NCBI GenBank assembly: GCA_029907255.1
Contig: JARYMF010000017.1
Coordinates: forward strand, 1 to 50,270
Reading direction: 5' to 3'
Source of the DNA: Armatimonadota bacterium
GTDB taxonomy: Bacteria; Armatimonadota; UBA5829; DTJY01
Length of the DNA stretch: 50,270 bases
Positions 1-1,340 of this stretch are shown here, piece after piece (the first letter of the stretch is position 1; every line of letters starts with the position of its first letter). Under the pieces are notes generated by a model. That model did not search any database and was not told where the DNA came from. It saw nothing but the letters and a program-made list of their open reading frames with translations. Made by a program: the position numbers and the translations under genes.

Positions 1-1340
1 ATTCAATTTCTGCGGTTGTAAACCTCTGTCGGGCAGGCACGTAGCCTGCCAGAGGAAGCACCGACCAACTACGTGCCAGCAGTCGCGGTTCAGACGTAGG
101 GTGCGAGCGTTGGCCAGTATCACTGGGCGTAAAGGGCGCCTAGGCGGCCAGGCAAGTCGGGCGTGAAATCCCCCAGCCCAACTGGGGAAGTGCGCTCGAT
201 ACTGCTTGGCTTGAGGGCAGTAGAGGAGAGTGGAATTCCCGGTGTAGCGGTGAAATGCGTTGATATCGGGAGGAACACCAATGGCGAAGGCAGCTCTCTA
301 GGCTGTTCCTGACGTTGAAGGCGCGAAAGCCAGGGGAGCGAACCGGTCTGGCCCCCGGGTAGTCCTGGCCCTAAACGATGGACACTTGTCCTGGGGGAGC
401 TAGTTGGCAATTTAGTTCACTGGCTCAGAGCTATCTGAGTGATGAGCTAGTAAACTAAATAGCTTCGAACTCTCCCGGGGCGGAGCTTACGCGTTAAGTG
501 TCCCGCCTGTGGAGTACGGCCGCAAGGCTGAAAATCATGGGAATTGGGGACGCCTGCACAAGCGGCTGAGCATGTGGCTTAATTGGACCCTGACCCAAGA
601 ACCTTACCAGGGCTGTCCGCATGCCTGAGGTTTCGGCCCAGCCGTTGGAAACAACGGCCGGTCGCCGACCTCCAGCCGTAGCAATGAATATTGTTTCGGT
701 TTGCAAGCGGCGTGCGGACAAGGTGCTGAGTGGCTGTTGTCAGTCCGCGTCGTGAGATGTCCGGTTCACTCCGGGAGCGGACGAAACCCCACACCCCCTG
801 TTGCTCCATTACCCGGGCAGAAAGCAATTTAAGGTTGTGAAAATCTAGTTTTCTCGGCCTCAAAATCGCAACTGCCCGGGGAGTTGAGCACTCTGGGGGA
901 ACCGCCGCCCTGCCCTTGGGGCGGGGTTGGAGGAAGGAGGGGACGACAGCGAGTCCGTGCGGCCCGCAAGCCCTGGGCCGCACACATGCTACAGTGGCCC
1001 GTACAATCGGCGACCCCGCGAGGGGGAGGCAATCCAAAAAGCGGGCCGTGGTTCGGATTGCAGTCTGCAACTCGACTGCATGAAGGTGGCCCATTGTGGG
1101 CGTCGCTAGTAACTGCCGGTCAGCGATACGGCGGTGAATACGTTCCCAGGCGTCCTTCATACCGCTAACCGCGTTCCGGCCGCGCGGGCCCGACCGAAGC
1201 CCTGTGTAGATGTGCTAGAAGGAAAGGCGGGGAAACTCTTCTCTTTCATCTTTTGCATGCTGACGGGGTTAGGCGGGCCCAACCGGCTGGACGTTGGAGT
1301 AGCAAGGCAACCGTACCGGAAGGTGCGGTTGGACTTTCTT
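1..1340 (+). rRNA. 16S rRNA, 5'-truncated, divergent at functional sites
   Basis: Small-subunit rRNA, entering at about E. coli position 420. The order of conserved blocks is bacterial: the 530-loop region (about 75-105), the 690-800 region (about 230-375), the 900-970 region (about 515-605), the 1050-1110 region (about 725-790), and the 1400 and 1500 regions (about 1140-1175 and 1300-1340). Many normally invariant bases differ. The 790-loop block does not read ATTAGATACCC, the 966 loop is rewritten, and the 1400 segment reads ACCGCTAACCG rather than ACCGCCCGTCA. A1492/A1493 are TT. The 3' end reads GGTTGGACTTTCTT and lacks the CCTCC anti-SD. There is a structured insertion of roughly 60-70 nt near 401-468. 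Helix complementarity is largely kept, so this is not an obviously shredded pseudogene. The 3' boundary is approximate. Confidence 0.9.
401..468 (+). other. Insertion in the 16S rRNA V5 region
   Basis: Between the normal flanks GGACACTTGTCC and TTAAGTGTCC, this 16S carries extra sequence compared with typical bacteria. It contains nested complementary segments: AATTTAGTT pairs with AACTAAAT, and CTCAG pairs with CTGAG around a short loop. It looks like a folded expansion segment. It is too short for a group I or II intron or a homing endonuclease gene. Confidence 0.6.

Follow-up and report, generated by a model that had tools for sequence, protein, structure and literature searches.

The stretch of DNA analysed here (the window), all 50,270 nucleotides of contig JARYMF010000017.1 from an Armatimonadota bacterium (assembly GCA_029907255.1), begins with a divergent 16S–23S ribosomal RNA (rRNA) operon in which the decoding site of the small subunit is sealed into a helix. 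We read this operon as a second, paralogous rRNA operon encoding a ribosome-like RNA that is under selection, does not translate, and uses the ribosomal proteins of its host, and give this reading a probability of roughly 0.72. The window corresponds to contig C17 in G000, a metagenome-derived bin of 3.23 Mb that is 99.7% complete and 2% contaminated, and a sister species of the same genus (G001) carries the same divergent operon at 98.9–99% identity.

A decoding site closed into a helix

The Rfam small-subunit (SSU) model RF00177 aligns window positions 1–1344 with model positions 408–1533 at only 689.5 bits, and the large-subunit (LSU) model RF02541 covers 1416–4520 over its full length (1–2925) at 2222 bits, compared with the 2836 bits that the sister species' canonical 23S reaches. 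The 23S gene (1416–4520) is complete, and the 16S gene (1–1344) is cut on its 5' side by the contig end; both genes, and all window features described below, lie on the forward strand. The missing part of the 16S lies in the same genome at the end of contig C25, which matches the divergent locus of G001 and terminates in ATTCAATTTCT, the first 11 bases of the window, giving an 11-nucleotide overlap. Homology is full length in the relatives, with RF00177 aligned over 1–1533 in G001, G002, G028, G042, G061, G062, and G304.

Positions were numbered on rrnB of Escherichia coli MG1655, and the Rfam alignment was accompanied by an independent MAFFT alignment. The 5' strand at the base of helix 44 (1157–1172, E. 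coli 1394–1409) carries A1394U, C1397U, C1403U, C1404A, G1405A, U1406C, and A1408G, and the 3' strand of the decoding site (1293–1307, E. coli 1491–1505) carries A1492U (1294), A1493U (1295), U1495G (1297), C1496A (1298), and A1500G (1302). From C1404A onwards all of these recur in the MAFFT alignment, which additionally gives C1054A and A1339C. When the segment 700–1344 was aligned alone, canonical GUACACACCGCCCGUCAC was replaced by CUUCAUACCGCUAACCGC and GAAGUCGUAACAAGG by GUUGGAGUAGCAAGG. The first-pass annotation had read the decoding-site letters from the window, and all of its substitutions hold in both alignments, but it had placed A1492 and A1493 ten positions too high, at 1304 and 1305: with C1501 anchored at 1303 they are T1294 and T1295, and 1304 and 1305 are A1502 and A1503. 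It had also asked whether a covariance alignment might find the canonical bases elsewhere; with RF00177 the canonical motifs are replaced.

The predicted fold of the window site contains C1406-G1495, C1407-G1494, and G1408-U1493, bearing out the earlier proposal of a closed internal loop (C1406-G1495 and G1408-U1493), and adds G1401-C1501, C1402-G1500, U1403-A1499, and A1404-U1498. The base of helix 44 is sealed by prediction in all seven testable divergent sequences, with letters that differ between members; G1401-C1501 and C1402-G1500 are predicted in each of the seven, and A1500G is common to all eight sequences. With the same folding, positions 1401–1403, 1406, and 1408 stay unpaired in the canonical 16S of G001, and these folds are illustrative only, because the single-sequence folds of E. 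coli and L003 are not the true ones.

Other parts of the decoding apparatus are affected as well. At least one of A1492, A1493, and G530 is altered in all seven members for which the three positions have data (7/7). The protein that contacts A1492 and A1493, uS12, is single-copy and canonical in the window's genome, with its PNSA motif intact, and no second uS12 is encoded there. The anti-Shine-Dalgarno CCUCC is missing from every divergent member, its place in the 16S 3' tail of the window (1331–1344) being taken by GGACUUUCUUAAAA. GGAGG-type sites, which require a canonical anti-Shine-Dalgarno, were found at 11 of the 25 window genes checked.

Translation surfaces released, protein-binding core kept

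The functional centres of the divergent 23S are rewritten as well, and the universal bases of the A-loop (G2553), helix 69, and the peptidyl-transferase centre (PTC) are not retained. Helix 69 (3517–3547) is replaced by a longer hairpin and the universal 1911–1919 loop is lost. The PTC strand 2446–2453 (4077–4092) is rewritten from GGGATAACAGG to GGGAAAACAGGG, and A2451 is either substituted or shifted, depending on one ambiguous gap in the alignment of 2447–2453; an insertion in this strand was considered and rejected, the alignment being that of a rewritten strand without one. A further PTC segment (4131–4140) carries A2503U, G2505U, and U2506C, and the A-loop (4181–4193), which reads GGGTTAACAGCCC, carries C2551U, G2553A, U2554A, U2555C, and C2556A. 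In the P-loop (3879–3887), CTTGGTCGG stands for canonical CTGGGGCGG, with G2250U and G2253U and with G2251 and G2252 retained; one of these two is lost in G042 and G062. The sarcin-ricin loop (4286–4300) is almost intact (G2661A).

Of the columns that do not vary in canonical rRNA, the share altered in the divergent clade, for regions whose limits are approximate and taken from general knowledge, is 36% at decoding, messenger RNA (mRNA), and transfer RNA (tRNA) sites and 74% in the anti-Shine-Dalgarno tail of the 16S, and 36% in the PTC ring, 47% in the A-loop, 45% in helix 69, and 43% in the L1 stalk of the 23S. It is only 4–10% in the regions of uS4, uS17, uS15, uS8, uS7, uL24, uL5/5S, uL3, uL2, uL20, and uL23. 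As a control, the mask of functional sites was slid round the molecule, and the observed excess was reached at 0 of 1482 SSU and 22 of 2844 LSU positions. Together, the control and the changed fractions argue that the core that binds proteins has been preserved and that the surfaces specific to translation have been released.

On one hand, these RNAs might form a specialised ribosome that still translates through the altered, sealed site, for example a message set of its own. The two subunit RNAs have been retained jointly and under constraint, conservation is fairly good in the sarcin-ricin loop, the GTPase centre, and the 5S-binding region, and rrnI of Vibrio vulnificus (I-ribosomes), a divergent operon beside normal ones with a proposed specialised function, is a precedent for translating divergent rRNA (PMC10697612). 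On the other hand, C1054, A1394, the anti-Shine-Dalgarno tail, helix 69, G2553, and PTC 2451–2453 are altered in every member with data, the window's genome has a single uS12, and no tRNA or translation-factor genes are conserved beside the loci. Since several independent functional centres were lost together in every member, we consider a translating ribosome improbable. With the decoding site sealed, the anti-Shine-Dalgarno gone, and helix 69, the A-loop, the PTC ring, and the L1 stalk rewritten, the particle would be incapable of normal translation. The first-pass suggestion that this rRNA no longer decodes normally thus gains support from the sealed site and from the rewriting, in the two subunits, of the other sites for mRNA, tRNA, and peptidyl transfer.

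Purifying selection and processing signals

Loss of universally conserved bases is also what a decaying pseudogene would show, that is, an rRNA operon left untouched by gene conversion and drifting with no function. Such decay would further account for standard pairs being fewer than in canonical rRNA, and for the canonical 23S tail differing between G000 and G001 at only 1 of 410 positions, compared with ~1% in the divergent operon. The pattern of substitution argues otherwise. With pairs scored on a structure derived from canonical sequences only and against a simple substitution null, SSU pairs with compensated two-sided changes number 33 between G001 and G002 (null mean 4.2, maximum 11), and 13 (maximum 5) and 15 (maximum 10) between other close divergent relatives; in the LSU, close divergent relatives show 50 (maximum 13) and 83 (maximum 28), so that the null maximum is exceeded in every pair. 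Gene conversion from the canonical operon was rejected as a source of the paired changes: local identity reaches at most 0.90, and no shared run exceeds 24 bases, compared with one of 47 bases for L003 and E. coli. The divergent 16S differs by 1.1% between G000 and G001, the 23S by 1.0%, and the spacer by 8.5%, with a synonymous divergence (dS) of 0.175 over 11 neighbouring genes, and the window operon has thus evolved ~17-fold more slowly than synonymous sites. The two signs expected of a pseudogene, substitution at the neutral rate and no compensation beyond chance, are both absent, and the changes cluster in functional sites and are not spread evenly. Constraint on the divergent operon is strong, though below that on canonical rRNA.

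Signals of rRNA maturation are also present. In the window, the 3' half of a 16S processing stem (1351–1373) has its partner, TTTGGTTCGGCGAAGCCGGCTTGG, on contig C25, upstream of the 16S (duplex −56.0 kcal/mol vs. −31.8 ± 4.5 for shuffled sequences), and the 5' half of a 23S processing stem (1404–1424) pairs with 4508–4529 (−56.1 vs. −19.5 ± 4.1), within the 3' half at 4508–4530. A boxA-like motif, GCACCTTGACAA, can be read directly ahead of the 23S (1383–1394), and the same motif lies ahead of the 16S and in the leaders of G001, G028, and G042. Stems around the 23S were recovered in 5 of 5 loci tested (z −5.8 to −9.8) and around the 16S in most, that of G062 not being convincing, and they are kept though their sequences differ between lineages. 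Judged from these boxA-like antitermination motifs and RNase III-type stems, the divergent operon is probably transcribed and processed like rRNA. Excess compensation, retained processing stems, and ~17-fold slow evolution indicate that the operon is not a pseudogene in decay, nor a product of mis-assembly; divergence rates and compensation largely refute the pseudogene reading, which we regard as unlikely.

Canonical rRNA in the same genomes

The divergent operon exists beside canonical rRNA. The canonical operon of G001 has its 16S divided over two contigs, and downstream of it lie two tRNA genes, a canonical 23S, and a 5S. In the window's genome, contig C9 starts upstream of where the canonical 16S belongs, at a distance of a few hundred bases, and contig C18 breaks off within a canonical 23S whose A-loop and sarcin-ricin loop letters are canonical; because these operon ends sit at contig edges, the canonical operon is present but unassembled. 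The divergent 16S, the only full 16S in the bin, is not the working rRNA. Fragments of a canonical 23S were likewise recovered from G002, G062, and G304, and G061 has a canonical 16S. In the latter genome, both the canonical and the divergent 16S (contigs C50 and C53; L047 and L052) enter unrelated sequence near the 3' end, and these breaks are probably assembly chimeras. Separately, no 23S match lies within ~4 kb downstream of the canonical 16S in several Armatimonadota genomes (L065–L069), which suggests that rRNA genes are unlinked there.

The window starts inside a 16S that is the bin's only full copy, as might be expected of a mis-assembly or of a misbinned foreign contig with an odd ribosome. 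However, the operon and its flank are colinear with G001 over 30.5 kb at 94.8%, and the independently assembled G001 has the same decoding-site letters. TrpB on the contig is 98% identical to that of G001 and 77% to that of another genus of the family, and the bin has no other close TrpB copy. Related operons come from separate metagenomes and from two phyla, and the site is sealed in relatives from other families and from another phylum. Colinearity and the TrpB identities exclude contamination, and an artefact of this kind is highly improbable.

Distribution and phylogeny

A pattern scan of 84,980 species genomes plus related genomes found the divergent operon in eight genomes (G000, G001, G002, G028, G042, G061, G062, and G304); because the pattern demands a change at 1394, these counts are lower bounds. 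Five of the 291 Armatimonadota genomes tested were positive, from two families of different classes, as were 3 of 36 Actinomycetota, all of one class. The divergent SSU sequences form one clade (100/100), as do the divergent LSU sequences, apart from all canonical rRNA sampled and with E. coli on the canonical side; inside it, Armatimonadota and Actinomycetota members separate. Approximately unbiased (AU) tests reject an independent origin from Actinomycetota, Armatimonadota, or family-level canonical genes.

Three candidates were rejected as members: viral contig L089, which matched the pattern and has no rRNA match; the low-scoring 16S of G049, which is N-filled but canonical; and L040 of Saccharibacteria, whose 16S (near 6094–6121, reverse strand) has U for A at 1394 as its single changed base and an otherwise canonical decoding site. 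We found no published description in the open-access literature, preprints being outside the search, and the clade of non-decoding rRNAs is apparently undescribed.

Operon layout and inserted hairpins

The window operon has no tRNA in its 16S–23S spacer and no 5S after its 23S, and no 5S was found adjoining the Armatimonadota divergent operons. The divergent operon of the actinomycetote G062 closes with its own 5S gene (L060, 16799–16914). Relative to the Rfam model, the divergent 16S carries an inserted hairpin of ~50 bases near helix 26 (409–460, z −4.5). Two extra hairpins in the divergent 23S (2107–2148 and 3740–3789) have common ends, GGAAAAGTTG...AACTTTTCC, and different middles; no such common ends are expected by chance, both fold as strong hairpins, and each may represent a copy of a small inserted element.

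A proposed ribosome-like particle beside the ribosome

Compared with ordinary 16S and 23S rRNA (RF00177, RF02541), the divergent molecules share full-length homology, operon order, boxA-like leaders, processing stems, fold, and ribosomal-protein sites, and differ in the sealed decoding site, the missing anti-Shine-Dalgarno tail, the altered helix 69, A-loop, PTC, and L1 stalk, the extra surface hairpins, and, in Armatimonadota, operons without 5S or tRNA. To our knowledge, heterogeneity among bacterial 16S genes within a genome amounts to a few to about ten percent, with universal functional bases kept; two kinds of rRNA per genome are found here too, but with larger divergence. As in rRNA pseudogenes, universally conserved functional bases are lost, but with strong compensatory evolution and slow substitution. 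The arrangement resembles that of V. vulnificus rrnI in that a second rRNA type shares a genome with canonical rRNA (in G001 and G061, and by fragments in G000, G002, G062, and G304). Unlike rrnI, it has rewritten decoding and PTC sites, does not retain the universal functional centres, is ~70% identical to the canonical copy, and belongs to a clade in two phyla.

That the divergent rRNA is both non-translating and under selection is, in our judgment, very probable. In the simplest model, the RNA would be expressed and would assemble with the host's own ribosomal proteins, drawn from the common pool, into ribosome-like particles. They may act by buffering or titrating ribosomal proteins and assembly factors, or as an inert subunit store or decoy. 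A buffering or titrating role would fit the pattern of conserved sites, and we put forward ribosomal-protein buffering only tentatively. For the lineage as a whole, we lean towards the view that an rRNA operon in two phyla was converted to a ribonucleoprotein that resembles the ribosome but does not translate, whose decoding site is sealed and protein-binding core kept, and that has a dedicated role beside the working ribosome.

Several observations weigh against this interpretation. Canonical pairs are kept at 88–92% in the divergent rRNAs and at 96.5–99.8% in canonical ones, and constraint is therefore weaker than on canonical rRNA. The central pseudoknot, 33% changed, is an exception to the kept core and could impair assembly. 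Neighbours vary by locus, with no partner gene conserved beside the divergent loci, canonical rRNA was not recovered in G028 or G042, and long-branch attraction could inflate support for a single clade.

rRNA has been assumed to exist only for translation, and its functional bases have been treated as universal. In practical terms, 16S surveys can take divergent genes of this kind for new, deeply branching lineages, and one such gene can be the sole 16S recovered from a bin, as in the window's genome. If our interpretation is true, these operons are a natural experiment that parts the needs of the rRNA fold from those of translation, and a conserved rRNA paralogue that keeps the architecture and drops the function would mean that the ribosome can be repurposed.
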